From Steroidobacteraceae bacterium (GTDB taxonomy: Bacteria; Pseudomonadota; Gammaproteobacteria; Steroidobacterales; Steroidobacteraceae): 64,000 bases of DNA. Under the pieces are notes generated by a model. It worked only from the letters and a program-made list of their open reading frames with translations. It had not been told where the DNA came from and did not search any database. Both the position numbers and the translations under genes were made by a program. Shown piece after piece: positions 26,796 through 58,873 of this stretch; position 1 is the first letter of the stretch, and the number at the start of each line of letters is the position of its first letter. The stretch is from contig JAPZRU010000017.1 in assembly GCA_027531255.1 (NCBI GenBank), forward strand, positions 62,001 through 126,000, read 5' to 3'.

Positions 26796-26812
26796 CCTTG
26801 TTCTCGGCGGCC

Positions 26813-34245: not shown

Positions 34246-34800
34246 ATGTCGCCTCGCCCCCCGCGCCCGCGCCCCGACCCCGCGCCGCCCCCGACGCGTG
34301 CGCCGCAGCCGGGCCCACCGGCCGGCCCCGACCTGCCGCAGGCGCTGGAGCTCGGCCGGTTCCTGCCCTACCGGCTGTCGGTGCTCGCGAACACGATGAG
34401 CGGCGCGATCGCGACCGCCTACGCCGAGCGCTTCGATCTCTCCATTCCCGAGTGGCGCGTGATGGCCGTGCTCGCGCTGGAACCCGGGCTGTCGGCCGCG
34501 AAGGTCGCGGAGCGCACGGCGATGGACAAGGTCGCCGTCAGCCGCGCGGTCGCTTCGCTGCTGCGCGCCAAGCGCGTCGAGCGCAGCGTGGAGGCGTGCG
34601 ACCGCCGGCGCTCGCAGCTGCAGCTCACGGCGCGCGGCCACGCGGTCTACCGCGAGGTCGTGCCCTTCGCGCTCGCGTACGAAGAGGCCGTGCTGCGCGG
34701 CCTGCCGCCGCGCACGCGCGAGAAGCTCGACGAACTGCTCGAAGAGCTGCTACGGCGAGCCCGGGCCCTCCGGCTCGACCGCCTCGCGCCCAGCAGGTGA
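34246..34800 (+). CDS. MarR-family transcriptional regulator
   Basis: 184 residues with a Pro/Arg-rich N-terminal 30 residues and then a MarR fold: helices, winged helix-turn-helix (GLSAAKVAERTAMDKVAVSRAVASLLRAKRVERS, split across about 84-118), the DRRRSQLQLTARG wing, and C-terminal dimerisation helices. ATG 34246 is the first start giving the full domain. Divergent from hpd, so it most likely controls tyrosine catabolism; MarR proteins of this context usually sense an aromatic intermediate. The glutamate dehydrogenase gene starts 29 bases downstream in the same direction. Confidence 0.87.
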   Translation: MSPRPPRPRPDPAPPPTRAPQPGPPAGPDLPQALELGRFLPYRLSVLANTMSGAIATAYAERFDLSIPEWRVMAVLALEPGLSAAKVAERTAMDKVAVSRAVASLLRAKRVERSVEACDRRRSQLQLTARGHAVYREVVPFALAYEEAVLRGLPPRTREKLDELLEELLRRARALRLDRLAPSR

Positions 34801-34829
34801 CCGGGCACCGTCCCACGGAGAACTCCAGA

Positions 34830-37800: not shown

Positions 37801-39665
37801 GCGACGTGTTCGGCAACGGCCTGCTGCGCTCGAAGCACATGCGCCTCGTCGCCGCGTTCAACCACCAGCACGTTTTCATCGATCCGGATCCGGACGCGGC
37901 GAAGGGCTTCCGCGAGCGCGAGCGCCTGTTCCGTCTGCCGCGCTCCACCTGGGCCGACTACGACCGCAAGGCACTGTCGAAGGGCGGCGGCGTCTGGTCG
38001 CGCGCCGAAAAGGCACTGAAGCTCTCGGCGGAGGCGCAGGCGCTCCTCGGCCTCGACGGCGAGAGCTTCCCGCCGAACGACGTGGTCCGCGCGATCCTGA
38101 AGCTGCCGGCGGACCTGCTGTGGAACGGCGGCATCGGCACCTACGTCAAGGCGACCGACGAGACGCACGCGCAGGTCGGCGACCGCGCCAACGACGCGGT
38201 GCGGGTCGACGGGCGCGAACTGCGCTGCAAGGTGGTCGGCGAAGGCGGCAACCTCGGCTTCTCGCAGCGCGGACGCATCGAGTACGCGCTGCACGGCGGC
38301 CGCATCAACACCGACTTCGTCGACAACTCCGGTGGCGTGAACTGCTCCGACGTCGAGGTCAACATCAAGATCGGCCTCGCGCTGGCGGCGCGCAGGCGGG
38401 GCCTGCGGCGGCCTGCGCGCGACCGCCTGCTCGCGCGGATGACGGACGACGTCAGCGCGCTGGTGCTGCGCAACAACTACCTGCAGAGCCAGGCGATCAG
38501 CCTGATCGAGGCGCGCGCCCGCACTGCGCTCGGCGAGCACGCGCACGTGATCCGCGCGCTGGAACGAGGCGCCGACCTGGACCGCGCGCTCGAGTTCCTG
38601 CCGTCGGACGAGCAGATCCAGGAGCGCCTGCAGCAGGGTCGCGGCCTGACTCGTCCGGAGCTCGCGATCGTCCTCTCGTACTCGAAGATCTGGCTCTACA
38701 ACCAGATCATCCAGTCCGACGTGCCCGAGGACGCCTATCTCTCGAACGAGCTCGATCGCTACTTCCCGGCCGCGATCCGCGCGAAGTACGGCGACCTGCT
38801 GCGCGAGCACCCGCTCCGTCGCGAGATCATCGCGACCGCCACCACGAACAGCCTGGCGAACCGCATGGGCCCGGTGTTCGCGCTGCGCGCCCAGGAAGAC
38901 ACCGGCGCCGGGATCGGCGCGATCGCGCGCGCGTTCGCGATCGCGCGCGAGGCGACCGGCATGCGCGAACTGTGGGGCGACGTGGAGGCGCTCGACAACC
39001 GCGTGCCCGCGGCCGTGCAGTACGAGATGACCGCGCGCAGCACGCGCGTGCTGCGCCACGCGACCTACTGGGTGCTGGCGCATCGCGACCGCGACCTCGA
39101 CGTCGAGCGCGTGGTCGGCTGGCTGCGGCCCGGGCTCGCCGAGCTCACCGCCGCGGCGCCCAAGCTGCTGACCGGGCGCCTCGGCGAGCGCATCCAGTCG
39201 CAGCGACAGCGGCTGCTCGAATCGGGCGTGCCCGACCGGATCGCGACGCGCGTCGCGACGCTCGAGATGCTGCCGTCCGGCCTCGACGTCGTCGACATCG
39301 CCTTCCGCCAGCGTGCGCCGATCGAGACGGTCGCCCGCGCGTACCTGCACCTCGGCGCCGCGCTCGACCTCGACTGGCTGCGGCAGCAGGTCGAAGAACT
39401 GCCCGTCGAGGGCCACTGGCAGTCGGTGGCCTGCGGCACGCTGCGCGACGGCGTGTACGCACTGCACCGGCTGCTCGCCGACCGCGTGGTCGGCACCGCG
39501 AAGCGCGGCAACGCCGTGCGCGCCGCCGAAGCGTGGCTGGCGTCGCGGCCGGGGCCGGTCGAGCACCTGCGCCGCACCTTCGCCGACATGAACGCGCTGG
39601 CGCGCGTCGACCACCCGACGCTCTCCGTCGCGGTGCAGTCGCTGCGGCGGCTCGCGGAGGCCTGA
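34830..39665 (+). CDS. gdhB: NAD-dependent glutamate dehydrogenase, 180-kDa class
   Basis: Large catabolic NAD-GDH of 1611 residues, oxidising glutamate to 2-oxoglutarate and ammonium. The N-terminal half (about 1-720) holds the ACT-like regulatory regions ([26 protein letters not shown]), and the catalytic domain (about 740-1250) contains [28 protein letters not shown] (read in pieces; substrate and coenzyme lysines), [10 protein letters not shown], and [16 protein letters not shown]. The helical C terminus (about 1250-1611) is typical of the class. It has a CGGAG ribosome site. The length and motifs exclude the 50-kDa NADP enzyme. It takes up the glutamate formed by IlvE and tyrosine transamination, which fits the neighbourhood. 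Confidence 0.96.
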   Translation: [1611 protein letters not shown]

Positions 39666-43425: not shown

Positions 43426-44091
43426 TCAGTCGGCGGCGGCCGGCTGGCCGTAGAGTTCGCGCAGCTTCGCCTCGAGGAAGCGCAGGAGGCGCTTGTCGCG
43501 CTCGGTTTCCTTGTGCGTGAGGAAACTCACGGCCATGCCTTCCATCACGTAGCGCACGAGGTCGAGCGCGACGTCGAACTGCTCGCCGCGGCCCTGCCAC
43601 TGCGGGAAGACCTCGCGCGCGGTCCGGTACCACTCGCGCTCGAAGGCCTCCTGCGCGGGCAGCAGGATCGCGGACAGTTCCGAATCCGTGCGGGCCGCGA
43701 CCGACAGTTCGAAGAATGCGACGTACATCGGGTGGCGCACGTGCGCCCAGTAGGCCTCGACGGACTGGCGCACGAAGTCGCCGTCGGCCGCCGCGGGGCG
43801 CTGGACCGCCTTGCGGAAGGCCTTGAGCCGCTTGCCGTGCAGGTAGTCGACCGCGGCGCGCACGATGTCGATCTTGGACGGGAAGTGATGGAGCATGGCG
43901 CCGCGCGACAGCCCCGCCTTCTCCGCGATGGCCGTGGTCGTGGTCTGCGCGTAGCCGAGTTCCACGAAGCACTTGATCGCCGCCTCGACGATCAGGTTGC
44001 GCGTGGCCGCGCTCTTCTGGGCCTGCCAGCCGGCCGGCTCCTGGGTGGCCGCGACGTCGGCCGATTCGGTGCTCATCTCGCTCGCCTGCAT
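43426..44091 (-). CDS. TetR-family transcriptional regulator
   Basis: 221 residues. The N-terminal HTH (about 30-75) reads AAIKCFVELGYAQTTTTAIAEKAGLSRGAMLHHFPSK, quoted here as the HTH span with core TAIAEKAG and MLHHFPSK; the C-terminal helical ligand domain is unremarkable. Two in-frame starts are possible, ATG 44091 and 44076; GAAGG lies too close to the first and far from the second, so the choice is uncertain. It diverges from an SDR, and two GTCCGGAC palindromes lie directly upstream, so it probably represses itself and the SDR. The downstream enoyl-CoA hydratase suggests an acyl-CoA ligand. Confidence 0.85.
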   Translation of the reverse strand: MQASEMSTESADVAATQEPAGWQAQKSAATRNLIVEAAIKCFVELGYAQTTTTAIAEKAGLSRGAMLHHFPSKIDIVRAAVDYLHGKRLKAFRKAVQRPAAADGDFVRQSVEAYWAHVRHPMYVAFFELSVAARTDSELSAILLPAQEAFEREWYRTAREVFPQWQGRGEQFDVALDLVRYVMEGMAVSFLTHKETERDKRLLRFLEAKLRELYGQPAAAD

Positions 44092-44116
44092 CCCTTCGCC
44101 CGGCGCCCTTCTTGAC

Positions 44117-44136
44117 GTCCGGACGAGGGTCCGGAC
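44117..44136. promoter_or_regulatory. Paired GTCCGGAC palindromes (candidate TetR operator)
   Basis: GTCCGGAC at 44117-44124 and again at 44129-44136, twelve bases apart centre to centre (about one helical turn), 26 bases before the TetR ATG. The pairing and position fit cooperative binding by two TetR dimers. Confidence 0.5.
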
Positions 44137-44196
44137 CCGGGGCTGTACGGCTCTGCGCGGCAGGATGGAACCCTGCCCAGAAAAAGTCAAAGATGA

Positions 44197-44225
44197 TTGA
44201 AACCGGCAGTGCTGACTGCTAGCGT
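44197..44225 (+). promoter_or_regulatory. Promoter of the TetR-divergent SDR
   Basis: TTGAAA (44197-44202), 17-base spacer, TAGCGT (44220-44225) with TG-C before it (extended -10). It lies in a locally AT-richer stretch about 77 bases before the SDR start, facing away from the TetR gene. Confidence 0.5.
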
Positions 44226-44302: not shown

Positions 44303-45061
44303 ATGGGACGTGTATCGGGCAAGGTCGCCATCGTCACGGGTGGTGCTTCGGGTCTCGGCCGCGCGGACTGCATCGCGCTGGCGCGCGAAGGCGCGAAGGT
44401 GCTGATCACCGACGTCAACGAGGCCGGCGGCACCGCGCTCGCCGCGGAGATCAACGCCGCCCATCCCGGCAGCGCGCACTTCGTGAAGCACGACGTGCGC
44501 GACGAGCAGCAGTGGATCGACGTGATCGCCGAAGCGAAGCGGCGCTTCGGCGGCCTGCACGTGCTGGTCAACAACGCGGGCGTCGTCCGCATCGTCACGC
44601 CCGAGACGTGCACGCTCGAGGAGTTCCGCTTCCAGAACGCGGTGATGAGCGAGGGAGTGTTCCTCGGCTGCAAGCACGCGATCCCGGCGATGAAGGACAG
44701 CGGCGGCGGCTCGATCATCAACATGTCGTCGACCGCGTCGCACCTCGGCTACCCGGTCTACTTCGCCTACTCCGCCGCGAAGGGCGCGGTGCGCGCGATG
44801 ACCAAGGCGATCGCGGTGCACTGCCAGCAGAACAAGTACAACGTCCGGTGCAACTCGCTGCACCCGGGCGCGATCGAGACGCCGATGGTCGCGAACTCGA
44901 CCAAGGACCTCGGTCTGCAGATGGAGGTGTGGCAGCAGACGCCGTGGGGTCTCGGCAAGCCCGAGGATGTCGCGAACGTCGTGGTCTTCCTCGCCTCCGA
45001 CGAGAGCCGGTTCGTCAACGGCGCCGAGATTCTTGTCGATAACGCAGTCACCATCCAGTAG
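44303..45061 (+). CDS. Short-chain dehydrogenase/reductase
   Basis: Classical SDR of 252 residues with TGGASGLG (12-19), ITDVN after beta strand 2 (NAD-type Asp37), NNAG (90-93), S142/S143, Y156 and K160 (YSAAK), and PGAIETPM. Similar to cyclopentanol/3-alpha-hydroxysteroid-type dehydrogenases, but the substrate is open. It has a GGAGG ribosome site. It is divergent from the TetR gene, which probably controls it, and its stop codon lies inside a perfect 15-bp hairpin. Together with the nearby crotonase and amidohydrolase it may act on an acyl or cyclic alcohol substrate. Confidence 0.85.
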   Translation: MGRVSGKVAIVTGGASGLGRADCIALAREGAKVLITDVNEAGGTALAAEINAAHPGSAHFVKHDVRDEQQWIDVIAEAKRRFGGLHVLVNNAGVVRIVTPETCTLEEFRFQNAVMSEGVFLGCKHAIPAMKDSGGGSIINMSSTASHLGYPVYFAYSAAKGAVRAMTKAIAVHCQQNKYNVRCNSLHPGAIETPMVANSTKDLGLQMEVWQQTPWGLGKPEDVANVVVFLASDESRFVNGAEILVDNAVTIQ

Positions 45062-45523: not shown

Positions 45524-45838
45524 CTATTCGTCCGGGGCGATCGCGACCTTGAGGCCGTCGAGAGCTTCGGTGAACTGCACCTGGCAGCTCAGGCGGCTCG
45601 TCGGCTTGTAGCCCGACAGTTCCTGCAGCAGTTCCTGCTCGTCGCCCTGCTTCGCCGGCAGCTTGTCCGCGAACGCCGGGTCCACGTAGACGTGGCAGGT
45701 GGCGCAGGAGCACATGCCGCCGCAGATCGCCGCGACGCCGTAGTCGAGCTCGCGCAGGGTCTCCATGACCGAAACGCCGACCTTGCCCGCCACGCGGTGT
45801 TCCTTGCCGTCGCGGTCCACGATCACGAGCTCTGCCAT
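45524..45838 (-). CDS. [2Fe-2S] ferredoxin, adrenodoxin/plant-type
   Basis: 104-residue electron carrier. Cluster ligands follow C-x5-C-x2-C...C: C39, C45, C48 (CGGMCSCATC) and C85 (RLSCQV); C43 is extra. ETLRELDYGVAAICGG is typical of ferredoxins serving cytochrome P450 or Rieske oxygenases. ATG 45838 is chosen since the family begins directly before this beta strand; an upstream start at 45931 would add a non-homologous leader. It is divergent from the SDR-ThuA-Rieske-OYE operon and shares its 262-bp control region, so it is the likely electron donor to that Rieske oxygenase. No ferredoxin reductase gene is adjacent. Confidence 0.9.
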   Translation of the reverse strand: MAELVIVDRDGKEHRVAGKVGVSVMETLRELDYGVAAICGGMCSCATCHVYVDPAFADKLPAKQGDEQELLQELSGYKPTSRLSCQVQFTEALDGLKVAIAPDE

Positions 45839-46009
45839 CCCGGACTCCTGCACGAAACGAAAGGGGTGCTGCGGCGCCGCATGCCGATGCAGCGAGCGCG
45901 CGATCTTGCGGGGGGTGCCGCAGCGTTGCAACCCGGGGCGCTCGGCCCGCGCGACGCTCGGCAGGCCGCGGCTCCGAGGATCGCGAGTCTGAACCGGATC
46001 GATGCAAAA

Positions 46010-46027
46010 AAACAGTCATGACTGTTT
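46010..46027. promoter_or_regulatory. Perfect 18-bp palindrome AAACAGTCATGACTGTTT
   Basis: An uninterrupted 18-bp palindrome in the ferredoxin/SDR divergent region, and the right arm overlaps the -35 of the SDR operon. At 70% G+C such an AT-rich perfect palindrome is very unlikely by chance. Size and symmetry fit a TetR-type operator, and the position predicts repression. The regulator gene is not adjacent; the TetR gene at 43.4 kb has different palindromes. Confidence 0.7.
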
Positions 46028-46051
46028 ATCGCCGTGACACCTTCCTATAAT
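46023..46051 (+). promoter_or_regulatory. Promoter of the SDR-ThuA-Rieske-OYE operon
   Basis: A consensus -10 TATAAT (46046-46051) with TGTTTA (46023-46028) 17 bases upstream as -35. It is the best sigma-70-type -10 in the window. The -35 lies inside the palindromic operator. The SDR ATG is 50 bases downstream. Confidence 0.65.
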
Positions 46052-46100
46052 CGGGTGACCGCGGTCCTCCGGCCGCGCCCAAGACCCCAAGGAGCAGACG

Positions 46101-46862
46101 ATGGATCTCGGACTTCGCGGCAAGAAAGCGATCGTGACCGGCGCCACCAAGGGCATCGGCCGGGCCATCGTCGAGCTGCTCGCCGCCGAGGGCGCCGACG
46201 TCGGCTTCTGCGCGCGCAGCGAGGAGGAAGTCGAGGAGACCGCCAAGTCGTTGCAGGCCAGGGGCGTGAACGTGGTCGGCGGCCCCGTGAACGTGCGCGA
46301 CGGCGAGGCCTACAAGGCCTGGCTCGAGAAGACCGCGGCCGAACTCGGCGGCTGCGACATCTTCGTGCCGAACGTCAGCGCCGGCGGCGGCATGGATTCC
46401 GAGAAGAACTGGTGGAAGAACTTCGAGATCGACGTGCTGCACACCGTGCGCGGCTGCGAGGCGCTGATGGAGCACCTGAAGAAGTCGGGCTCGGGCTCGA
46501 TCGTGATGATCTCCTCCACCAACGCGATCGAGACCTTCGCGGCGCCGATGGCCTACAACGCGATGAAGGCGGCGCTGATCACCTACGGCAAGCAGCTGTC
46601 GCAGTTCGTGGGCCGACACAACGTGCGCGTGAACACCGTCTGCCCCGGCCCGATCTACTTCGAGGGCGGCGCGTGGGAGATGATCAAGAACACGCAGCAG
46701 AAGTTCTACGACGCGACGCTGCGCGCGATGCCGAACGGCCGCTTCGGTACGCCGGAGGAGGTAGCGCGCGTGGTCGCGTTCCTGGCGAGCCCCGCAGCGA
46801 GCCTCGTGACCGGCGCGAACGTCGTGGCCGACAACGGCTTCACGAAGGGCGTGCGGTTCTAG
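46101..46862 (+). CDS. Short-chain dehydrogenase/reductase, divergent NNAG motif
   Basis: 253 residues. Cofactor motif TGATKGIG (13-20), catalytic S138/S139, Y152 and K156 (YNAMK), CPGPIYFEGG loop. Instead of the SDR NNAG the sequence reads PNVSAGGG (90-97), a variant found in some SDRs whose central strand is otherwise intact. CARS after beta strand 2 (R39) suggests NADP(H). It is the first gene of a four-gene operon: ThuA follows after 4 bases, then the Rieske oxygenase after 36 and the OYE-type enzyme after 4. It may oxidise the alcohol produced by, or the substrate of, the oxygenase. Confidence 0.84.
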   Translation: MDLGLRGKKAIVTGATKGIGRAIVELLAAEGADVGFCARSEEEVEETAKSLQARGVNVVGGPVNVRDGEAYKAWLEKTAAELGGCDIFVPNVSAGGGMDSEKNWWKNFEIDVLHTVRGCEALMEHLKKSGSGSIVMISSTNAIETFAAPMAYNAMKAALITYGKQLSQFVGRHNVRVNTVCPGPIYFEGGAWEMIKNTQQKFYDATLRAMPNGRFGTPEEVARVVAFLASPAASLVTGANVVADNGFTKGVRF

Positions 46863-46866
46863 GCCG

Positions 46867-47712
46867 ATGACCGACCCCGCCGCGCCGGCCGCCGCCTCAC
46901 CCTCCGCCCCCACCGCCGCGGGCGCTGCCGGCGCGTCCGGCGGCGCGGAGGCCGCGGCCGGTGCGCCGCCCGCGAAGCGCCGCACGCGCGCCTGGTTCGT
47001 CTGCGGCGGCAAGTTCCACGACATCGACTACGCTCGCCTCGAACTGCTGAAGCTGCTCGGCGAGCACGACCACGTGCGCACGCGCGTGTCCGAGGACTAC
47101 TCGGACCTCGACGGCATCGAGCAGTCGGACTTCCTCGTCACCTACACCGTGGACGTGGTGCCGGACGAGGCCCGTGCGCAGCGGCTGCGCGACTGGGTGG
47201 CGAGCGGGAGGCGCTGGCTGGCGCTGCACGGCACGAACTCCGTGCTGCGCCTCAACGGCAAGCGCTGGGAGGCGCCGCGCGAACACCGCACGTTCATGGA
47301 GACGGTGGGCTCCCAGTTCCTGGCCCACCCGCCGATCGCGCCGTATCGCGTGGAGATCACGCAACCGGAGCACCCGCTGGTGCGCGGGATCGAGCCGTTC
47401 GACGCCGACGACGAACTGTATCTTTCCGAACTGCACGGGCCGATCGAGACGCTGCTGCACACCCGCTGGGCCGGCGAGACCCGGCTGTTCACCGACCGCG
47501 ACTGGACGCAGGACGAGCCGCGGCCGGTGCTGTACCTGAAGCGCGTGGGCGCGGGCGAAGTGCTCTACTTCACGCTCGGGCACGCGCGCGGGCGCTGGGA
47601 CATGCTGCCGCTGATGGACGAGTACCCCACGCGCGAACTCGGCAGCTGGAAGCAGCCGGCGTTCCACGAGATCCTGCGGCGCGGCCTGCGCTGGGCCGCG
47701 CGCATCGACTGA
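46867..47712 (+). CDS. ThuA-like domain protein
   Basis: 281 residues. The first 40 are Ala/Gly/Pro-rich and probably disordered, then a ThuA (trehalose-utilisation, glutamine-amidotransferase-like fold) domain: AWFVCGGKFHDIDYARLELLK (in parts), LALHGTNS, HPPIAPYRVEI, EHPLVRGIEPFDADDELY and FTLGHARGRWDM. The class-I amidotransferase Cys is not visible. ThuA proteins act in disaccharide or glycoside catabolism, some on 3-keto sugars, but many remain uncharacterised. Placement between an SDR and a Rieske oxygenase is unusual and suggests a role in the same substrate pathway. Confidence 0.8.
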   Translation: MTDPAAPAAASPSAPTAAGAAGASGGAEAAAGAPPAKRRTRAWFVCGGKFHDIDYARLELLKLLGEHDHVRTRVSEDYSDLDGIEQSDFLVTYTVDVVPDEARAQRLRDWVASGRRWLALHGTNSVLRLNGKRWEAPREHRTFMETVGSQFLAHPPIAPYRVEITQPEHPLVRGIEPFDADDELYLSELHGPIETLLHTRWAGETRLFTDRDWTQDEPRPVLYLKRVGAGEVLYFTLGHARGRWDMLPLMDEYPTRELGSWKQPAFHEILRRGLRWAARID

Positions 47713-47748
47713 GACGGCGCCGCGACCGCCGCGCCCGAGGACACGACG

Positions 47749-49161
47749 ATGGCGACGAATCCCACCGATCCGATCCTGCCCGCGGGCGAGGCGGGCGCCG
47801 AGCCCTCGTTCGAGGCGCGCCTGCTCGAGGTCTCGCGCGCGCCGAAGTTCAGGCCGCTGCGCCGCTGCAAGCCGGAGGAGAGCCCGGTCACGCCGGTCGC
47901 GAAGGAGCCGGACCCGGACCTCGGCCACGCGATCATCCCGAAGGAGCGCTACTACTCGAAGGAGTTCATGCGCCTCGAGTGGGAGAAGATCTGGACGAAA
48001 GTGTGGCTGCTCGGCGGGCTCGAGAGCGACATCCCCGAGGCCGGCGACTACATCTGCACCGAGATCGGCCCGGAGTCCGTGCTGCTGGTGCGGCAGCAGG
48101 ACGGCTCGGTGAAGGGCTTCTACAACGTGTGCATGCACCGCGGGAACCGGCTGCGGCCCACCGGCGTGTCCACCGCGAACTCGTTCAAGTGCCAGTACCA
48201 CCACTGGGAGTACGATCTCGACGGCACGTTCAGGCGCATCCCGGACCTCGACACCTTCCCGCAGGGCGCGCCGAAGTGCCGCGGCATTCCGCAGATCAGG
48301 GTCGGGCTCTGGGGCGGCTTCGTCTGGTACACGCTGAACCCCGAGCCGCAGCCGCTCGAGGAGTTCCTGGCGCCGGTGAACCGCCACCTCGACCCGTACA
48401 ACTTCCACAAGATGGCGATCACGCGCGACGTGACCGTCGAGTGGGACTGCAACTGGAAGACCTCCGTGGACGCCTTCAACGAGACGTACCACGTGCAGGG
48501 CATCCACCCTCAGCTGATGTACTACCTGCACGACCTCGACGTGCAGATCGACTGCCTCGGCATCCACAGCCGCTACCTGATCCCGTTCGGCACGCTCAGC
48601 CCGCGCATCAAGAAACCGCCGACGATCCCCGAGCCGATCAAGGTGATCATGAAGGCCGCCGGCATGGACCCGGCGGACTACGACGAGCCGATCGAGAACA
48701 TCCGCCGCGACGTGCAGCGGTGGAAGCGGAAGCACGGCCCGGCGCAGGGCAAGGACTACTCGAAGCTGAACGACGACCAGCTCACCGACGACTACCACTA
48801 CCTGATCTTCCCGAACGTGTCGGTGAACGTGCACGCGGACGACCTGATGCTGTTCCGCCAGCGCCCCCACCCGACCGATCCGGACAAGATGTACTACGAC
48901 GTCTGGACCCTCGACCTCGTGCCGGACGGCCACGAGCGGCCGCCGCGCCCGAAGCACCAGCACTTCAGGTACGGCGACAAGTCGATCGGCCTCGTGCTCG
49001 ACCAGGACGCGCAGAACCTGCCGGGCGTGCAGGCCGGCATGCACTCGCGCGCGTTCGAGGGCCTGTGGATCGGTTCGCAGGAGCTGCGGATCCGGCACTT
49101 CCACAAGGTGATCGACGACTTCGTGTACGGGCCCGGGCAGAAGCCCGAGGGCGCGCTCTGA
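47749..49161 (+). CDS. Rieske non-heme iron oxygenase, alpha subunit
   Basis: 470 residues. Rieske [2Fe-2S] domain ligands are C128-x-H130 (NVCMHRG) and C148-x2-H151 (KCQYHHW). The mononuclear iron site in the C-terminal SRPBCC domain has H248 and H253 (NETYHVQGIH) with an Asp in LDQDAQN (418-420). The bridging residue before the first His, Asp in naphthalene dioxygenase, is Glu here (E245), as in carnitine monooxygenase CntA. No beta subunit gene is present, so an alpha-only oligomer is expected. It lies in an operon with SDR, ThuA and a flavin/FeS oxidoreductase, and has a divergent ferredoxin as likely donor. The substrate is unknown. Confidence 0.9.
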   Translation: MATNPTDPILPAGEAGAEPSFEARLLEVSRAPKFRPLRRCKPEESPVTPVAKEPDPDLGHAIIPKERYYSKEFMRLEWEKIWTKVWLLGGLESDIPEAGDYICTEIGPESVLLVRQQDGSVKGFYNVCMHRGNRLRPTGVSTANSFKCQYHHWEYDLDGTFRRIPDLDTFPQGAPKCRGIPQIRVGLWGGFVWYTLNPEPQPLEEFLAPVNRHLDPYNFHKMAITRDVTVEWDCNWKTSVDAFNETYHVQGIHPQLMYYLHDLDVQIDCLGIHSRYLIPFGTLSPRIKKPPTIPEPIKVIMKAAGMDPADYDEPIENIRRDVQRWKRKHGPAQGKDYSKLNDDQLTDDYHYLIFPNVSVNVHADDLMLFRQRPHPTDPDKMYYDVWTLDLVPDGHERPPRPKHQHFRYGDKSIGLVLDQDAQNLPGVQAGMHSRAFEGLWIGSQELRIRHFHKVIDDFVYGPGQKPEGAL

Positions 49162-49165
49162 GGCC

Positions 49166-51172
49166 GTGACTCCCGCCGCGCTCGCGCCATTCCGGCTCGG
49201 GAACGTCGAACTGCGCAACCGGATCGTGCGCACCGCGCACGGCACGAATCTCGGTCGCGGCGAGCTGAATGAAGCGCTGATCGCGTACCACGAGTCGCGG
49301 GCTCGCGGCGGCGTCGCGCTGACGGTGCTCGAGGCCACCGGCGTCCACCCGTCCTGCCCGATGACGCTGAACGCGTGGGACGATGCGATCGTGCCGCGCT
49401 ACCGCGAGCTCGCGACCCGGCTGCACGCGCACGGCATGCGCGTGTTCAGCCAGCTGAACCACCTCGGCCTGGACGGCCACGCACGCGGTGCGCGGCCCTG
49501 GTCCGCGTCGGCGCTCGTCGCACCGTGGTCGGGGCTGCGCGCGGTCGCGATGGACGCGACGCAGATCGACGCGGTCGTCGATGGCTTCGCGCAGGCCGCG
49601 CGTCGCGCCCGCGAAGGAGGCCTGGACGGCCTCGAGGTGCACTGCGCGCACGGCCACCTGCTGCAGCAGTTCCTCTCTCCGCTCACGAACCGGCGCGACG
49701 ACGAGTACGGCGGCGACGACGAGCGCCGGCGGCGCTTCGTCGAGCGCGTGCTGCGCGCGTGCCGCGCGGCGGTCGGCACCGACTTCGTGCTCGGCATCCG
49801 CGTCGGGCCACAGCCCACGCCGGGGGGCCTCGACGTCGCATCGCAGGTGGCGCTGGTGCGCTGGCTCGAGGCGGAGCACCTCGTGGACTACGTCAGCGTG
49901 TCGCGCGGCGATCTCCGGCGGCCGGACGAGATCATCGGCGCGATGCACGAGCCGGCCGGCTACGAGCTTGCCGACGCTCGACCGATCACCGCAGCCACGC
50001 GGCTGCCGACGATGGTGGCGGGCCGCATCCGCACGGTCGCCGAAGCGAGCGAGGTGGTCGGCAGCGGGATCGCGGATCTCGTCGGCATGACGCGCGCGCA
50101 CATCGCGGACCCGGACCTGATCGCGAAGACGCTCGCCGGACGCGCGCACGAGGTGCGCCCGTGCATCGCCTGCAACCAGGGCTGCGTGGGCGGCCTCGCG
50201 CGCGGACGGCTCGGCTGTTCGGTCAATCCACTCGCGGGACGCGAGACGGAGTTCGCAACCGCGGCGCCGTCGCGAGCCGAGACGAGTGCGACCGAGGCTC
50301 GGTCAGCGCCTGCACGGCGCGACGCCCGTCCGCGCGCGGCCAGCCCGGTACTGGTCGCCGGCGGCGGGCCGGCCGGCCTCGAGGCGGCGCGGACTCTCGC
50401 GGAGCGCGGGGTGCGCGTAGTCCTCGCCGAGGCCGGCCCCGAGCTGGGCGGCGCGCTGCAGCTCGCGCGCCGCGCGCCGCGCCACGCGGCGATCGGCGAG
50501 ATCGCGGACTGGCTGGCGCGCGAGGTGCACCGGCTCGGCGTCGAGGTCCACACCGGCACTCCCGCGACGCCGGCGTTCGCGCGGGAGCTCGGCGCCACGC
50601 GCGTGATCGTCGCGGTCGGCGGCCGCGCCGCACCGCCGCTCGAGCAGCGGCACCGGCCGGGCGCGGACCAGCGCGGCGCGACGGACGCCGTGCCGGTGAT
50701 CGGCGCGCGCGACCTGCTGCGTGCCCCGCCCGCGCGGCTGCCGCGACGCGCCGTGGTGCTCGACGAACTCGGCACCTACGAGGCGATCGGCGCGGCGGAA
50801 TGGCTGCTCGAGCACGGCGTCGCGGTCTGCTTCGTCACGCCGCTGCGGACGATCGGGCCGCGGCTCGAAGCCGCACTGGTGGTCGGCCCCGCGCTGGAGC
50901 GGCTGCGGTGCGGCACGTTCGCGCTGCAGGCGCGCGCGCAGGTGCTGGGCGTGGACGCGCACGGTGCGCGGCTCGCCTGGCTGGAAGGCGGACAACCCTG
51001 GCACGAGCCGGCCGAACTCGTGGTCGGCGCGGTGACCGCGCTACCGGCGGATGATCTCGTACGGGCTTTCGAGCTCGGCAGCTGCCGGGCGATCGCGGTC
51101 GGCGACGCCCGGCATCCCGGTACGCTGGAAGAGGCGATCCGGAGTGCGCACGAGATCGCCGCGCGACTCTGA
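49166..51172 (+). CDS. NADH:flavin oxidoreductase, trimethylamine dehydrogenase/dienoyl-CoA reductase type
   Basis: 668 residues, three-part architecture: FMN TIM barrel of the old yellow enzyme family (about 1-325; HGLEVH-type motif as EVHCAHGHLLQQFLSPLTNRR), a [4Fe-4S] site C333, C336, C340, C351 (CIACNQGC...GCSVNP), and an FAD/NAD(P)-binding region (VLVAGGGPAGLEAA, about 390). This is the layout of trimethylamine dehydrogenase, 2,4-dienoyl-CoA reductase and N-demethylases. GTG 49166 starts four bases after the Rieske stop. It could reduce an enone intermediate, demethylate an amine, or even pass electrons to the oxygenase; position in the operon favours the same pathway. Between about 362 and 385 the linker is low-complexity. 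Confidence 0.88.
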   Translation: MTPAALAPFRLGNVELRNRIVRTAHGTNLGRGELNEALIAYHESRARGGVALTVLEATGVHPSCPMTLNAWDDAIVPRYRELATRLHAHGMRVFSQLNHLGLDGHARGARPWSASALVAPWSGLRAVAMDATQIDAVVDGFAQAARRAREGGLDGLEVHCAHGHLLQQFLSPLTNRRDDEYGGDDERRRRFVERVLRACRAAVGTDFVLGIRVGPQPTPGGLDVASQVALVRWLEAEHLVDYVSVSRGDLRRPDEIIGAMHEPAGYELADARPITAATRLPTMVAGRIRTVAEASEVVGSGIADLVGMTRAHIADPDLIAKTLAGRAHEVRPCIACNQGCVGGLARGRLGCSVNPLAGRETEFATAAPSRAETSATEARSAPARRDARPRAASPVLVAGGGPAGLEAARTLAERGVRVVLAEAGPELGGALQLARRAPRHAAIGEIADWLAREVHRLGVEVHTGTPATPAFARELGATRVIVAVGGRAAPPLEQRHRPGADQRGATDAVPVIGARDLLRAPPARLPRRAVVLDELGTYEAIGAAEWLLEHGVAVCFVTPLRTIGPRLEAALVVGPALERLRCGTFALQARAQVLGVDAHGARLAWLEGGQPWHEPAELVVGAVTALPADDLVRAFELGSCRAIAVGDARHPGTLEEAIRSAHEIAARL

Positions 51173-52416: not shown

Positions 52417-52461
52417 TTGCTTGTTTTTCCCCGGTCCCGTACAGTGAGTGAAACGATCGTT
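52417..52461 (+). promoter_or_regulatory. Promoter and palindrome of the acoABC-like operon
   Basis: TTGCTT (52417-52422), 17 bases, TACAGT (52440-52445) in an AT-rich dip (52381-52430). Seven bases downstream is the palindrome AACGATCGTT (52452-52461), a possible repressor site. Upstream, TGCCGG-TTT-CCGGCA (52399-52413) forms another short inverted repeat. Confidence 0.5.
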
Positions 52462-52528
52462 CGGGTCCCGCCCGCCGCTGCGCGCGACCGTCACCGGGAC
52501 CCGGACCCCGACCGCAGGAGTCCCCGCC

Positions 52529-53530
52529 TTGGCTACCGCGCCCGCCTCCAGCGCGCCGCACGCACCGCTCGCGCGCGAGCAGTTGCTCCGCGCGTACCGC
52601 ACGATGAAGACGATCCGCGAGTTCGAGGAGCGTCTGCACGTCGAGATCCAGACCGGCGAGATCCCCGGCTTCACGCACCTCTACGCGGGCCAGGAAGCGG
52701 TCGCGGTCGGCGTCTGCGAGCACCTCTCCGACCGGGACTACATCGTCAGCACGCACCGCGGCCACGGGCACTGCCTCGCCAAGGGCTGCGACGTGCAGGG
52801 CATGATGTACGAGATCTACGGCCGCGCCGCCGGCCTTTGCAAGGGCAAGGGCGGCTCGATGCACATCGCCGACGTGACGAAGGGCATGCTCGGCGCGAAC
52901 GCGATCGTCGGCGGCGGTCCGCCGCTCGCGGTCGGCGCGGCGATCGCCTGCCGCAACCGCAAGGACGGCACCGTGTCGGTGGCGTTCGGCGGCGACGGCA
53001 GCGCGAATCAGGGCACCGTGTTCGAGGCGATGAACATGGCCGTGGTGCTGAAGGTGCCGGCGCTGTTCGTGTTCGAGAACAACGGCTACAGCGAGCACAC
53101 CGGCGCGGACTACGCGGTCGGCTCGAAGGACATCGCGGGCCGCGCGCGCGGCTTCGGGATGCCCGCCGAGAAGTGCGACGGCTCGGATTTCTTCGCGGTG
53201 TACGAGGCCTTCGGGCGCCTGTGCGCGCACGCGCGCGCGGGCGGCGGGCCCGCGACGCTCGAGCCCGTGATCACGCGCTACTACGGCCACTTCGAGGGCG
53301 ACCCGCAGCTCTACCGCGCGAAGGACGAGGTCAAGCGCCTGCGCGAGACGATGGACTGCCTGAAGAAGTTCCGCGCGCGCGTCGAAGGCGAAGGCTGGCT
53401 GAAGGCCTCCGACCTGGACCCGATCGACGAGCAGGTGCTCGCGCAGATCGACGTCGCGGTGAAGAGCGCGCGCAGCGCGCCACCCGCGCCCGAGTCCGAA
53501 GTGACCACCGACGTCTACGCGACTTACTGA
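52529..53530 (+). CDS. acoA: Acetoin/2-oxo acid dehydrogenase E1 alpha subunit (AcoA-like)
   Basis: TPP-dependent E1 alpha of about 333 residues. TPP motif GGDGSANQG (GDG 155-157) to ENN (about 183-185). The start is taken as TTG 52529, preceded by AGGAG eight bases upstream and giving the AcoA-type N terminus; a GTG at 52448 would lie in the promoter palindrome. THRGHGHCLAKG and the short C terminus resemble acetoin dehydrogenase AcoA and the related cleavage complexes rather than BKD. It heads acoA-acoB-acoC-PQQ dehydrogenase. The substrate could be acetoin, another acyloin or a 2-oxo acid. Confidence 0.85.
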   Translation: MATAPASSAPHAPLAREQLLRAYRTMKTIREFEERLHVEIQTGEIPGFTHLYAGQEAVAVGVCEHLSDRDYIVSTHRGHGHCLAKGCDVQGMMYEIYGRAAGLCKGKGGSMHIADVTKGMLGANAIVGGGPPLAVGAAIACRNRKDGTVSVAFGGDGSANQGTVFEAMNMAVVLKVPALFVFENNGYSEHTGADYAVGSKDIAGRARGFGMPAEKCDGSDFFAVYEAFGRLCAHARAGGGPATLEPVITRYYGHFEGDPQLYRAKDEVKRLRETMDCLKKFRARVEGEGWLKASDLDPIDEQVLAQIDVAVKSARSAPPAPESEVTTDVYATY

Positions 53531-53581
53531 GCGACGGCCGCCCGCCGCTCCCGCCCCGAATCACGAGGTCCGAGAGTTCCC

Positions 53582-54592
53582 ATGGCCCAGATGACGATGC
53601 GCGACGCGATCAACGCCGCGCTGCACCTCGAGATGGCCCGCGACCCGCGCGTGATCGTCCTCGGCGAGGACGTCTCCGGCGGCGCCGGCGGCACGTCAGG
53701 CAACCGCGAGGCCTCCGGCGGCATCTTCGGTGTCACGAAGGGGCTGTGGCCCCTGTACGGCGACGAGCGCGTGATCGACACGCCGATCTCCGAGTCCGCG
53801 ATCGTCGGCGCCGCCGCCGGCGCCGCGCTCGCCGGCCTGCGCCCGGTCGCGGAGCTGATGTTCGCCGACTTCGTCGGCGTGTGCATGGACCAGATCTTCA
53901 ACCAGGCGGCGAAGTTCCGGTACATGTTCGGCGGCAAGAGCTCGTGCCCGGTCGTTATCCGCGCCGCGATGGGCGCGGGCATGAACATGGGCGCGCAGCA
54001 CTCGCAGACCATCTACCCGTTCATCACCGCGGTGCCCGGCATCAAGGTAGTGGTGCCGTCGAACGCCTACGATGCGAAGGGCCTGATGCTGCAGGCGCTG
54101 CGCGACGACGACCCGGTGATGTTCTTCGAGCACAAGGCGCTGTACCCGCGCAAGGGCGAGGTGCCGGACGGCGACTACACGATCCCGTTCGGCGAGGCGG
54201 CGCTCGTGCGCGAGGGCGAGCACGTCACCGTCGTCGCGCTCGCGCGCATGGTGCCGTTCGCGGAGAAGGCGATCGACCTGCTCGCGAAGGAAGGCATCAC
54301 CTGCGACCTGATCGACCCGCGCACCACCTCCCCGCTCGACGAGGAGACGATCCTCGAGAGCGTCGAGAACACCGGTCGGCTGGTGGTCGTGGACGAGTCG
54401 CCGCCGCGCTGCAGCGTGGCCTCCGACATCGCCGGCATCGTCGCCTCGAAGGGCTTCCACGCGCTGAAGGCGCCGATCGTGCAGGTCACCGCCCCGCACG
54501 CGCCGGTGCCGTTCGCGCGCGAGCTCGAGCGTGCGTACGTGCCGGGGCCGCAGAAGATCGAGACGGCCATCCGCCAGGTATTGAAGGACTGA
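53582..54592 (+). CDS. acoB: Acetoin/2-oxo acid dehydrogenase E1 beta subunit (AcoB-like)
   Basis: 336 residues, partner of AcoA. Transketolase-type pyrimidine-binding domain with VLGEDVSGGAGG (about 22-33), the AcoB-characteristic GGTSGNREASGGIFGVTKGL insertion (quoted by ends), TPISESAIVGAAAG, and the C-terminal domain with DLIDPRTTSPLDEETI. The GEDV loop insertion separates it from the bkdA2 product. It lies 51 bases after acoA and 11 before acoC. Confidence 0.87.
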   Translation: MAQMTMRDAINAALHLEMARDPRVIVLGEDVSGGAGGTSGNREASGGIFGVTKGLWPLYGDERVIDTPISESAIVGAAAGAALAGLRPVAELMFADFVGVCMDQIFNQAAKFRYMFGGKSSCPVVIRAAMGAGMNMGAQHSQTIYPFITAVPGIKVVVPSNAYDAKGLMLQALRDDDPVMFFEHKALYPRKGEVPDGDYTIPFGEAALVREGEHVTVVALARMVPFAEKAIDLLAKEGITCDLIDPRTTSPLDEETILESVENTGRLVVVDESPPRCSVASDIAGIVASKGFHALKAPIVQVTAPHAPVPFARELERAYVPGPQKIETAIRQVLKD

Positions 54593-54603
54593 GAAGCAAG
54601 CAC

Positions 54604-55902
54604 ATGAGCCACCGCATCTTCGCCATCACGATGCCCAAGTGGGGCATCGAAATGCAGGAAGGGACGATCACGGACTGGCACGCCGCGCCAGGCGCGACGC
54701 TCGGCAAGGGCGACCCCCTCCTCGACGTCGAGACCGAGAAGATCGTCAACTCGGTGGAGGCGCCGATCGCCGGCACGCTGCGGCGGATCGTCGCGGACAA
54801 GGGCGCGACCGAGAAGGTCGGCGCGCTGATCGGCGTGTTCGCGGAAGCCGACGTCACCGACGCCGAGATCGACGCGTTCGTCACGGGCTTCCAGCCGGCG
54901 GACACGAGCTTCGAGCCGGACGCGGGCACCTCCGAGGCCGCGGTCGCGGCGCCCTCGGTGCCGGCGAGCACCGGCCCGGCCCCGACGCCGGCGGATTCAG
55001 GCAGTGACGGCGAGGCGCGCGTCAGCCCGATCGCGCGGCGCGTCGCCGAGCGGCTCGGCGTGGACGTCACGAAGGTCAAGGGCACCGGCCGCAACGGCCG
55101 GGTGTCGAAGGAGGACGTCGAGGCCTACGCGGCCGCGCACGGCCTCGGCGGTGCGGCCGGCACGGGCGCAGCACCGGGTGCGGCGGCGACCGGCGCCCCG
55201 GCCGCGACCGGCGCGGCGGGTCCGGCGAACGAGCCCGCGCGCAGGAAGATGACCTCGATGCGCGCGACGATCGCGCGCCGCCTGCTCGAGTCGAAGCAGG
55301 GCATCCCGCACTACCGGCTCGCGATCGACGCCGACCTGACCGCCCTGCTCGCGCACCGCGCGCGCCTCAACGCGGCCGGCGGCACGAAGGTGTCCGTGAA
55401 CGACCTGCTGGTGCGCGCCTGCGCCCTCGCGCTCGTGAAGCACCCGACCGTGAACGCGCAGCTGCACGGCGACGAGGTGCACGAGTTCCCGCACGCGGAC
55501 GTCTGCGTCGCGGTCGCGACCGAGAACGGCCTGACGACGCCCGTCGTGCGCGCGGCGGACACGAAGACGGCGGCGCAGGTCGCCGCCGAGGTCGCCGACC
55601 TCGCCGAGCGCGCACGCACCGGCAAGCTGGTCCGCGAGGAGATCACCGGCGGAACGTTCACGATCTCGAACCTCGGCATGTTCGGCGTGGACCGGTTCGA
55701 CGCGATCGTCAATCCGCCGCAGGTGGCGATCCTCGCGGTCGGCGCGGGCGCCGACCGGGTGATCACGAAGAACGGCCAGCCGACGGTCGCGAAGGTGGCG
55801 ACGCTGACGCTGTCGTGCGATCACCGGGTCGTCGACGGCGCGGTCGGCGCGCAGTTCCTCGCGACGCTGCGCGCGCTGCTCGACGCGCCGGAGGCGCTGT
55901 GA
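54604..55902 (+). CDS. acoC: Dihydrolipoamide acyltransferase E2 (AcoC-like)
   Basis: 432 residues: one lipoyl domain (1-80, lipoyl K46 in ETEKIVNSVEAP), Ala/Pro/Thr linker, peripheral-subunit-binding domain (about 138-175, RVSPIARRVAERLGV), second Ala-rich linker, and the catalytic domain with H407 and D411 (DHRVVDG). The MPKWGIEMQEGTITDW start is typical of the acetoin/AcoC-like class. Unlike some AcoC proteins it has the ordinary E2 acyltransferase domain, not an alpha/beta-hydrolase. Its stop overlaps the next ATG (TGATG), coupling it to the PQQ dehydrogenase. No E3 gene follows. Confidence 0.87.
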   Translation: MSHRIFAITMPKWGIEMQEGTITDWHAAPGATLGKGDPLLDVETEKIVNSVEAPIAGTLRRIVADKGATEKVGALIGVFAEADVTDAEIDAFVTGFQPADTSFEPDAGTSEAAVAAPSVPASTGPAPTPADSGSDGEARVSPIARRVAERLGVDVTKVKGTGRNGRVSKEDVEAYAAAHGLGGAAGTGAAPGAAATGAPAATGAAGPANEPARRKMTSMRATIARRLLESKQGIPHYRLAIDADLTALLAHRARLNAAGGTKVSVNDLLVRACALALVKHPTVNAQLHGDEVHEFPHADVCVAVATENGLTTPVVRAADTKTAAQVAAEVADLAERARTGKLVREEITGGTFTISNLGMFGVDRFDAIVNPPQVAILAVGAGADRVITKNGQPTVAKVATLTLSCDHRVVDGAVGAQFLATLRALLDAPEAL

Positions 55903-57860
55903 TGCGCCGCGGGGCGCTGCTCGCGATCGCCGCGGCGGCGATCGCGTGGTTCGTACCGGCGGCCTTCGCCGCCGAGCCGGCCGCCGCGCACCCGGGCGCT
56001 CGCGTGTACGCGCAGCACTGCGCGAGCTGCCACGAGGGCGGCGTACCCAAGTCGCCGCACAAGATGTTCCTGCAGCTGATGGCCACCGACGCCATCCACG
56101 ACGCGCTCACGGTCGGCGTCATGCAGGCGCAGGCGGCGGCGCTGTCCGCGGAGCAGCGCCAGGCGGTGGCGGAATACCTCACGGGCACGCCGCTCGCCGA
56201 GGCCCGCAACCGCCCGCCGCTCGCGCGCTGCACGGGCGCCGCCGCGGAGTTCGACCTGCGCGACTCGCCCGCCAAGGCGGGCTGGGGCATGGACGGCGAC
56301 AACTCGCGCTTCATCCCGACCGACGTCGCGGGGCTCGGCGCCGCCGACGTGCCGCGGCTGCAGCTGCGCTGGGCGTTCGCGTTCCCGCAGGCGCAGCGCG
56401 TGCGCTCCCAGCCGCTGGTCGCGCTCGGTGCGGTCTACGTCGGCAGCCAGAACGGCACCGTGTACGCGCTCGACGCGGCCACCGGCTGCGTGCGCTGGGA
56501 GTTCCGCGCCAGCGCGGAGGTCCGCACGGGGCTCGTGATGGCGACGTGGCCCGCCGGCGAGGCGCCCGGCGAGCGACCGCTGCTGCACTTCGGCGACCTG
56601 ATGGCGCGCGTGTACGCGGTCGACGCGCGCACCGGCGAGCTCGTCTGGAGCGTCAAGGCCGACGATCACCCGAATGCGACCGTCACCGCGACGCCGGCGC
56701 TGCACGACGGCCGCCTCTACGTCGCGGTGTCCTCGCTAGAGGTCAGCACCGCCGCCGACCCGAAGTATCCCTGCTGCTCGTTCCGCGGCTCGATCCTCGC
56801 GCTGGACGCCGCGACCGGCGCGACCGCGTGGAAGAGCTACACGATTCCCGAGGCGCCGCGCGAAGTCGGCCGCACGCGCGTCGGCACGCCGATCCTCGCG
56901 CCGTCCGGCGCGCCGATCTGGAACACGCCGGTGGTCGACGCGCGACGCGGGCTGCTGTACGCCGGCACGGGCGAGAACTACTCGTCGCCCGCCGGCCCGA
57001 CCAGCGACGCGCTGCTCGCGTTCCGGCTCGCCGACGGCGCGCTGGTCTGGGCGCGGCAGAAGACCGCGGGCGACGCCTGGAACGTCGCGTGCATGCTGCC
57101 CGACAACCCGAACTGCCCGGTCGAGGACGGCCCGGACTACGACTTCGGCGCGGCCACGATCCACGCGCGGCTCGGCGAGCGCAGCCTGCTGCTGGCCGGC
57201 CAGAAATCGGGCGAGGTGTTCGCGCTCGACCTCGACCGCGGCGGCGAGCCGGTTTGGCGGCGCAAGGTGGGCCGCGGCGGCATCCAGGGCGGCGTGCACT
57301 TCGGCATGGCGCTCGGCGGGGACCGGCTGTTCGTGCCGATCTCCGACAAGGACATGGCGGCGCGGGTCTACGAGCAGCCGGCACGTCCCGGTCTCTACGC
57401 GCTCGACGCGCTCACGGGTCGCCTGCTGTGGGAGAGTCCGGCGAACGACGTCTGCGGCGGGCGCCCGTTCTGCTCGCCCGGCATCGGCCAGGCGATCACC
57501 ACGATCCCGGGCGTGGTGTTCGCCGGGCACATGGACGGGCGGCTGCGCGCGTACGCGGCGGACACCGGTCGCGTGCTCTGGGAGACGGACACCACGCGTG
57601 AGGTGTCCGCCGTGAACGGCATGCGCGCCCGCGGCGGCTCGTTCGGCGGCGGGGCCGGGCCGGTGGTGCGGCGCGGCCTGCTGCTCGCCAGTTCCGGCTA
57701 CGGCATCTACGAGCACATGGCGGGCAACGTGCTGCTCGCGTACTCGGTGGGCACGCCGGCGGCGAGCACGGCAGCCACGGCCGGCGCGGCGACCCCGGTC
57801 GGCACGACGAGCTCTGCGACCGCACCGGCGGCCGCGCCCGGGTCCTCCGCCGCGCCTTGA
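55902..57860 (+). CDS. Periplasmic cytochrome c-PQQ dehydrogenase, polyvinyl-alcohol-dehydrogenase type
   Basis: 652 residues with a Sec signal (about 4-23), an N-terminal cytochrome c domain (C40-AS-C43-H44) and a PQQ beta-propeller (about 110-625) with repeated W-docking motifs (LYALDAATG, VYALDAATG, LLWES). The N-terminal heme, YPCCSFRG, and the C-terminal SGYGIYEHMAGNVLLAY match polyvinyl alcohol dehydrogenase and related secondary-alcohol enzymes rather than methanol dehydrogenase. The C terminus is Ala/Thr-rich. It is translationally coupled to acoC. It should oxidise secondary alcohol groups in the periplasm and donate electrons to cytochrome c. Identification of the true substrate needs more than sequence. 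Confidence 0.85.
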   Translation: MRRGALLAIAAAAIAWFVPAAFAAEPAAAHPGARVYAQHCASCHEGGVPKSPHKMFLQLMATDAIHDALTVGVMQAQAAALSAEQRQAVAEYLTGTPLAEARNRPPLARCTGAAAEFDLRDSPAKAGWGMDGDNSRFIPTDVAGLGAADVPRLQLRWAFAFPQAQRVRSQPLVALGAVYVGSQNGTVYALDAATGCVRWEFRASAEVRTGLVMATWPAGEAPGERPLLHFGDLMARVYAVDARTGELVWSVKADDHPNATVTATPALHDGRLYVAVSSLEVSTAADPKYPCCSFRGSILALDAATGATAWKSYTIPEAPREVGRTRVGTPILAPSGAPIWNTPVVDARRGLLYAGTGENYSSPAGPTSDALLAFRLADGALVWARQKTAGDAWNVACMLPDNPNCPVEDGPDYDFGAATIHARLGERSLLLAGQKSGEVFALDLDRGGEPVWRRKVGRGGIQGGVHFGMALGGDRLFVPISDKDMAARVYEQPARPGLYALDALTGRLLWESPANDVCGGRPFCSPGIGQAITTIPGVVFAGHMDGRLRAYAADTGRVLWETDTTREVSAVNGMRARGGSFGGGAGPVVRRGLLLASSGYGIYEHMAGNVLLAYSVGTPAASTAATAGAATPVGTTSSATAPAAAPGSSAAP

Positions 57861-58066: not shown

Positions 58067-58873
58067 CTACTGCGCGGTGTACCCGCCGTCCACGACCAGC
58101 TCCGAGCCGGTCATGAAGCGCGACTGGTCCGAGGCCAGGAACACGATCGCGTCCGCGATCTCGTCCGCGTCCGCCATGTGCCCGATCGGGTGGGCCCGCG
58201 CGATCGCCGCGCGCGCCTCGTCGGGCGACGGCGCGAAACCGACCTCGCCTAGCTCCTTGAGGCACTGCGCGGCGAACGCGGTGTCCACCGTGCCGGGGTG
58301 GATCGAGTTGACGCGGACCTTGAGGCCGAGCGCCGAGTACTCGAGCGCCTGCGCCTTGGTGTAGAGCCGCACCGCGCCCTTCGAGGCGCAGTACGCGGTC
58401 TGGAACGCGACGCCGATCAGGCCACAGATCGAGGACATGTTTACGATCGAGGCGTGACGGCCGCGCCGCTCCGCTTCGGCGTGCAGGTCGCGCGCGAACG
58501 CGCGCGAGCCCAGGTACATGCCCTTGACGTTGACGGCGAAGATCCGGTCCCACTCGTCCGGCGTGGTCGCGAACGAGTCCTTCACGACGTCGATGCCGGC
58601 GTTGTTGACGAGCACCAGCGGTGCGCCGTGCTCGGCCAGCACGTGCTCGCGGAGCGCGTTCCACGCCGCCTCGCTGGCGACGTCGAGGTCGCGGTAGGTG
58701 GCCTCGAGGCCCTCCCCGCGCAGCGCCTGCGCGAACGCCTCGCCGCGCTCCCGGGTGACGTCCGTGATCACCACGCGATAGCCCGCGCGGCCGAGCTGCC
58801 GGCACGTCGCCGAACCGATGCCACCCGCACCGCCGGTGATGATCGCGACCGGCTTTCCGCTTGCTGCACTCAT
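58067..58873 (-). CDS. Short-chain dehydrogenase/reductase
   Basis: 268 residues. TGGAGGIG (about 13-20), ITDV after beta strand 2 (Asp, NAD-type), NNAG (about 98-101), SSICG serine and YCASK (about 153-169), PGTVDTAF loop and the C-terminal TGSELVVDGGY. A typical classical SDR. Its gene follows the PQQ dehydrogenase and TonB receptor genes on the minus strand with a 72-bp gap, so it may be co-transcribed and act on the product of the same alcohol pathway. Confidence 0.85.
   Translation of the reverse strand: MSAASGKPVAIITGGAGGIGSATCRQLGRAGYRVVITDVTRERGEAFAQALRGEGLEATYRDLDVASEAAWNALREHVLAEHGAPLVLVNNAGIDVVKDSFATTPDEWDRIFAVNVKGMYLGSRAFARDLHAEAERRGRHASIVNMSSICGLIGVAFQTAYCASKGAVRLYTKAQALEYSALGLKVRVNSIHPGTVDTAFAAQCLKELGEVGFAPSPDEARAAIARAHPIGHMADADEIADAIVFLASDQSRFMTGSELVVDGGYTAQ

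Follow-up and report, generated by a model that had tools for sequence, protein, structure and literature searches.

Gene content, conservation and promoter sequences indicate that the Rieske oxygenase operon described here is part of a real, conserved and co-regulated catabolic gene cluster, and, on balance, we favour a model in which a TetR-controlled regulon serves a Rieske pathway for a ring compound. In the window (the whole 64,000-nucleotide stretch of DNA analysed), the gene for a putidaredoxin/FdVI-type [2Fe-2S] ferredoxin (PF00111; (-) strand, start ATG at 45838, stop at 45524) diverges from a (+) strand operon that encodes an SDR dehydrogenase as its first gene (SDRb, 46101-46862), a ThuA-family protein (ThuA, 46867-47712; PF06283, class I GATase-like fold), a Rieske oxygenase alpha subunit (RO1, 47749-49161; Rieske and Ring_hydroxyl_A domains) and an OYE/FadH/BaiCD-like flavoenzyme with FMN, 4Fe-4S and FAD (OYE, 49166-51172; GTG start, Oxidored_FMN and FAD domains). 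The original prediction had described this gene order correctly, and Pfam confirms each family; the gaps of 4 (SDRb-ThuA), 36 (ThuA-RO1) and 4 (RO1-OYE) bases, the consensus -10 box TATAAT (46046-46051, (+)) and the perfect 18-bp palindrome AAACAGTCATGACTGTTT (46010-46027), which overlaps the expected -35 region, are likewise all present. Beyond that description, we found a TetR-family regulator (43426-44202, (-); PF00440, 52 bits), a second SDR dehydrogenase divergent from it (SDRa, 44303-45061, (+)) and, at 52448-55902 (+), the E1 alpha (52448-53530), E1 beta (53582-54592; orthologues 66-90%) and E2 (lipoyl acyltransferase, 54604-55902, start MSHRIFAITMPK) genes of a 2-oxoacid dehydrogenase. 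Further along lie a PQQ beta-propeller dehydrogenase with an N-terminal cytochrome c domain (55815-57860, (+); assigned in part from the domain content of orthologues), an SDR dehydrogenase within the cluster (58067-58873, (-)), a PQQ-dependent alcohol dehydrogenase with a C-terminal cytochrome c (58946-61138, (-); TIGR03075, 532 bits against a cut-off of 480; 54% identical to the RAC03 cluster enzyme) and a TonB-dependent outer-membrane receptor, probably for substrate uptake (61214-63766, (-)).

The operon is one unit of an approximately 50-kb supercluster on its own contig (C32:105-155 kb), of which the window (C32:62001-126000) covers the left part. The other members include two more Rieske oxygenases (RO2 and RO3), a Rieske ferredoxin, an acyl-CoA dehydrogenase, a CoA-transferase, a thiolase, PQQ dehydrogenases and a TonB receptor. 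When the proteins of Sphingobium RAC03 were projected on this contig, the shared core fell entirely within C32:105-155 kb, with identities of 43% for TetR, 58% for SDRa, 55% for SDRb, 47% for ThuA, 67% for RO1, 63/70% for E1 alpha/beta, 54% for the PQQ dehydrogenase, 72% for the acyl-CoA dehydrogenase, 60% for RO3 and 48-50% for RO2. In annotated records, the cluster that surrounds the operon spans 30-40 kb and adds a Rieske-type ferredoxin and two or three more Rieske oxygenases, along with acyl-CoA dehydrogenase, CoA-transferase III, an OB-fold protein, a Cys-less thiolase, AMP ligases, TonB receptors, PQQ dehydrogenases, and MaoC, VOC and ABM proteins.

The supercluster holds a further E1 alpha/beta pair (L032:8497-11812, i.e. 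C32:134.5-137.8 kb) with an operator-like site (13/16) at L032:11832. The window also encodes a fused isobutyryl-CoA mutase, IcmF (3630-7082, (-); 1680 bits, cut-off 1500), with an operator-like site (13/16) at 7144; IcmF lies about 30 kb or less from RO1 in several relatives but is present in 176 of the 296 genomes of the order, so we rejected it as a pathway-specific enzyme and take its linkage in the window as no more than a weak indication. A second 2-oxoacid dehydrogenase E1 beta/alpha pair (19366-23409, (-)) and an acyl-CoA dehydrogenase (26798-28024, (+)) possibly serve branched-chain catabolism. An open reading frame at 34452-39665 (+), found upstream in several loci along with a phosphoglycerate-mutase-like gene, is suggested by its length (1737 aa) to be a candidate NAD-glutamate dehydrogenase. 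In the Niveispirillum cyanobacteriorum cluster, four consecutive tryptophan-halogenase family genes adjoin the TonB receptor (L099:28838-34962).

RO1 orthologues (E below 1e-170) were found in 32 of the 296 genomes of the order, at 55-77% identity; nearly all 32 carriers have a second Rieske gene (35-40% identity) that usually lies on the RO1 contig, and RO2-type genes share one contig with RO1 in most of them. A scan of 84,980 species genomes yielded 53 loci, from Steroidobacteraceae-type MAGs, Niveispirillum, Sphingomonas, Novosphingobium and Sphingobium. Plasmid records gave further loci in Paracoccus, Croceicoccus, Terrarubrum and Sphingobium RAC03, which, together with Niveispirillum, are the named records with the same module. 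Overall, identity to RO1 was 53-79% across Steroidobacterales-type MAGs, sphingomonads, Niveispirillum, Paracoccus and Terrarubrum. Cluster orthologues of 72-77% also lie on the MAG contigs L064, L066, L067 and L091; the record titles of these contigs (Klebsiella pneumoniae, Candidatus Planktophila lacus or Janthinobacterium lividum) are probably wrong.

The neighbourhood around RO1 is conserved over 58 loci, mostly MAG contigs. Neighbours were counted by tblastn of the window genes on RO1 loci, and only loci with enough flanking sequence entered each count. SDRb lies at most 1.5 kb upstream of RO1 in 45 of 54 loci, ThuA lies between the two in 29 of 54 (elsewhere it is often close by in another position), and E1 alpha follows within 6 kb downstream in 36 of 47, with E2 orthologues 3' of E1 in many loci. 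Orthologues of SDRa (54-77%) and TetR (40-78%) are present in most loci, and TetR adjoins SDRa in most. Of the 34 loci that extend 6 kb to either side, 11 have the ferredoxin, which is thus often unlinked. OYE lies downstream of RO1 at a single locus (L061) out of 47 with at least 2.5 kb of downstream sequence; among 31 carrier genomes, its orthologue is confined to G000 and G010 (65%; the G010 locus is L061), and the remaining genomes hold nothing closer than unlinked paralogues (at most 38% identity). The comparison of clusters around Rieske genes, which the original prediction had set as its test, therefore upheld SDR and ThuA as partners of the oxygenase but not OYE. On this distribution, we regard OYE as an accessory, lineage-specific local add-on rather than a conserved partner.

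The distribution of the palindrome AAACAGTCnnGACTGTTT marks it as a genuine regulon signal. Its 16-bp core has no second copy in the window at three or fewer mismatches, and 0 of 100 shuffles reproduced the palindrome. The window copy of the exact site AACAGTCnnGACTGTT is the only one in its own 4.2-Mb genome, which also holds five sites with two mismatches; two of these (C32:148468 and 153529) stand immediately before RO3 and RO2. Across 1.13 Mb of cluster DNA, in which some loci are near-duplicates, we counted 97 sites matching at 13 or more of 16 positions (23 perfect), compared with a mean of 1.6 and a maximum of 13 (none perfect) for 60 controls with shuffled half-sites. These sites precede SDRb-RO1, RO2, RO3, the Rieske ferredoxin/ABM pair and E1 alpha as well as TonB, AMP-ligase, acyl-CoA dehydrogenase and TetR genes. 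The operator stands before each of the three Rieske genes. The idea of a regulated pathway with a palindromic operator was right, and the case for it is stronger than had been supposed. Of the 32 genomes of the order with RO1, 19 have exact sites, as opposed to 3 of the 264 others (Fisher P about 1e-18). These three are G003, G055 and G197; the 40% Rieske homologue in G197 suggests that the regulons are related. Further, the palindrome is kept upstream of SDRb in diverged orthologues, and the distance from its start to the -10 box is near-constant (about 36-40 nt) in orthologous promoters.

One operator thus precedes many cluster promoters and co-occurs with the regulator gene. In the sphingomonad loci L097 and L098, two 15/16 copies lie between TetR and the SDR gene, i.e. 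in the TetR promoter, and the site is missing from the long loci without a TetR gene (L080, L083, L085, L093 and L099-L101, comprising Niveispirillum, Paracoccus, Terrarubrum and L093); both observations make the adjacent TetR the likely DNA-binding protein. One short contig (L071) has sites and no visible TetR gene, and the site between TetR and SDRa in the window is degenerate (11/16). From the co-occurrence, the adjacent TetR (43426-44202) most likely binds the palindrome and is a likely repressor of the regulon. The palindrome is centred some 40 nt ahead of the expected start site and overlaps the -35 region, which fits repression, although the position alone would also allow activation.

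The ThuA-family protein scores 67 bits with PF06283 (gathering cut-off 33.4) and has invariant H, D and E residues. Its AlphaFold model (pLDDT 90.5) has a ThuA/GATase-1-like fold, with 4e5v (E 3e-11) and the ThuA-like 4jqs as the best Foldseek matches. The named cluster records hold no sugar gene conserved alongside ThuA, and our literature search found nothing relevant on ThuA paired with a Rieske protein.

From these results we infer the following route, in which a large catabolic regulon would have this operon at its promoter-proximal end. TetR would bind AAACAGTCnnGACTGTTT over the -35 region until released by a pathway ligand. A hydrophobic natural compound might enter by the TonB receptor and be pre-oxidised by the periplasmic PQQ dehydrogenases; inside the cell, RO1 would hydroxylate an intermediate as an alpha-only Rieske monooxygenase, supplied with electrons by the ferredoxin together with an NAD(P)H ferredoxin reductase encoded elsewhere, and SDRb would oxidise the resulting hydroxyl group. 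The presence of E1 and E2 implies a 2-oxo acid or alpha-diketone intermediate, and ThuA and the 2-oxoacid dehydrogenase could act on this oxo product to give an acyl-CoA, which would pass to the regulon's own acyl-CoA dehydrogenase, CoA-transferase and thiolase. OYE would tap into the route as a strain-specific enone reductase or dehydrogenase.

With its three Rieske oxygenases, the cluster probably degrades a ring-shaped natural compound. Our reading of the substrate class draws on gene families in the clusters of distant relatives: flavoenzymes resembling KstD/4-oxocyclohexanecarboxylate dehydrogenase are encoded in the L100 and L101 clusters (Paracoccus and Terrarubrum), and, apart from glyoxalase-type VOC proteins, no aromatic ring-cleavage dioxygenase was found in the cluster. 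Together with OYE, this points to an alicyclic keto ring, and our best guess is a natural product that contains such a ring, for instance an isoprenoid or apocarotenoid. It is possible, if doubtful, that the regulon represents an undescribed but widespread aerobic ring opening of alicyclic isoprenoids (e.g. abscisic acid or another gem-dimethyl apocarotenoid), in which three Glu-bridged Rieske monooxygenases, ThuA and the 2-oxoacid dehydrogenase would be the tools, IcmF would finish the branched acyl-CoA, and one TetR operator would be common to alpha- and gammaproteobacteria. Abscisic acid itself is a guess; the accounts consulted describe dehydrovomifoliol formation by Rhodococcus P1Y and abscisic acid degradation by Novosphingobium P6W but give no gene cluster for comparison.

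Alternatively, the substrate could be an aromatic acid degraded by an ibuprofen-like route, in which the CoA ester would undergo Rieske oxygenation and then lose its side chain in a retro-aldol reaction. A CoA-transferase/OB-fold/Cys-less thiolase trio, whose enzyme types match ipfDE (PMC11347016), does adjoin RO1 in alphaproteobacterial clusters; however, the window's own cluster lacks it (the closest homologue, at 47%, is on another contig), and the missing ring-cleavage dioxygenase and the absence of a beta subunit gene near RO1 also make this route unlikely.

In RO1, the Rieske ligands (C128, H130, C148 and H151) and the iron ligands (H248, H253 and D420) are all conserved; the C-x-H...C-x2-H motif, the 2-His-1-carboxylate triad and the PF00355 and PF00848 domains identify it as a Rieske non-haem iron oxygenase alpha subunit. 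Its bridging residue is E245 in place of Asp, with F243 two residues earlier, and a bridging Glu with an aromatic residue two positions before it defines group V, the group of CntA (PMC7948474); RO1 has both features. This residue pair (Phe occupying the position of CntA Y203), CntA as the nearest fold and GbcA as the best NCBIfam match would fit a group-V quaternary-ammonium oxygenase and a cluster that degrades a betaine- or carnitine-like compound. We consider this quite improbable, as the GbcA score is 143 bits against a cut-off of 670, the margin by which CntA leads is small (the biphenyl dioxygenase fold scores nearly equal), the Glu is also present in RO2 and RO3 and hence marks the entire cluster, and the annotated cluster genes around RO1 include none for an N-demethylation pathway but, instead, CoA-ester, TonB and PQQ genes. 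Quaternary-amine chemistry is possible for RO1 alone, but its neighbours are those of CoA-ester catabolism. The CntA-like residues and near fold, taken with the low GbcA score, make an alpha-only monooxygenase the most likely model for how RO1 works.

Electrons for RO1 most likely come from the ferredoxin of the window and an unlinked BphA4-type reductase. The phmmer matches of this ferredoxin are 3lxf, 1e9m and putidaredoxin. As had been noted, no classic ferredoxin reductase is nearby; the genome's one BphA4-type ferredoxin reductase is unlinked (C35:289 kb; gene L112:4329-5558), and in the Terrarubrum cluster (L101) a BphA4/HcaD-type reductase adjoins a 2Fe-2S ferredoxin. That OYE is instead the dedicated reductase of the oxygenase, as the original prediction proposed from the 4-base gap, the family-expected FMN/FeS/FAD cofactors and the want of a reductase nearby, is very improbable, and we rejected it on conservation: OYE is missing from 46 of the 47 orthologous loci and has no orthologue in their genomes, a BphA4-type reductase serves, or can serve, orthologous clusters, and enones are the substrates of OYE-family enzymes. 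Its description as TMADH-like came down to a remote fold relation, with FadH as the best solved match, and we rejected a closer one. OYE (NRIVRTAHGTNLG) has Gly at the position of TMADH Cys30, which we take to be that of the 6-S-cysteinyl FMN. PF00724, the CIACNQGC...C 4Fe-4S motif and the FAD/NAD domain place it in the OYE/2,4-dienoyl-CoA reductase superfamily, where its best family is mycofactocin OYE_2 (TIGR03997; 450.8 bits against a cut-off of 793) and the BaiCD model gives 309 bits against 825.

Overall, a regulon, its operator and its gene set are defined for a conserved pathway whose carriers come from lake, phycosphere and soil and include cultured strains. The operator allows searches for the regulon, the substrate can be put to a direct test in the cultured carriers, and the cluster offers a setting for finding a role of ThuA outside sugar metabolism.

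Compared with known systems, OYE shares with FadH, BaiCD and mycofactocin OYE_2 one domain order, Oxidored_FMN, the 4Fe-4S cysteines and an FAD/NAD domain, but His (HGHLLQQF) replaces the catalytic Tyr that FadH has in 'GYL'. RO1 resembles the group-V enzymes CntA, GbcA and Stc2 in its alpha-only fold, bridging Glu and preceding aromatic residue, but is only about 17-18% identical to them on fold alignment, with the GbcA model far below its cut-off; their pathway neighbours are other ones, and a ferredoxin here replaces the CntB-type reductase. The ipfABDEF ibuprofen cluster similarly combines a Rieske oxygenase, CoA activation and a thiolase-like and OB-fold pair, whereas the window's cluster lacks both the aromatic ring-cleavage module and the trio. 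The steroid/bile-acid clusters of Sphingobium Chol11 and its relatives share with ours CoA-ester logic, SDRs, Rieske oxygenases, and KstD-like and OYE-type Delta4-ketosteroid dehydrogenases (PMC8399759). The part of the review consulted describes no matching cluster for the Chol11 bile-acid pathway, and no KshA-named structure is among the PDB matches of RO1-RO3. In contrast to the Chol11 clusters, ThuA, the 2-oxoacid dehydrogenase and the palindromic regulon are features of the cluster described here.
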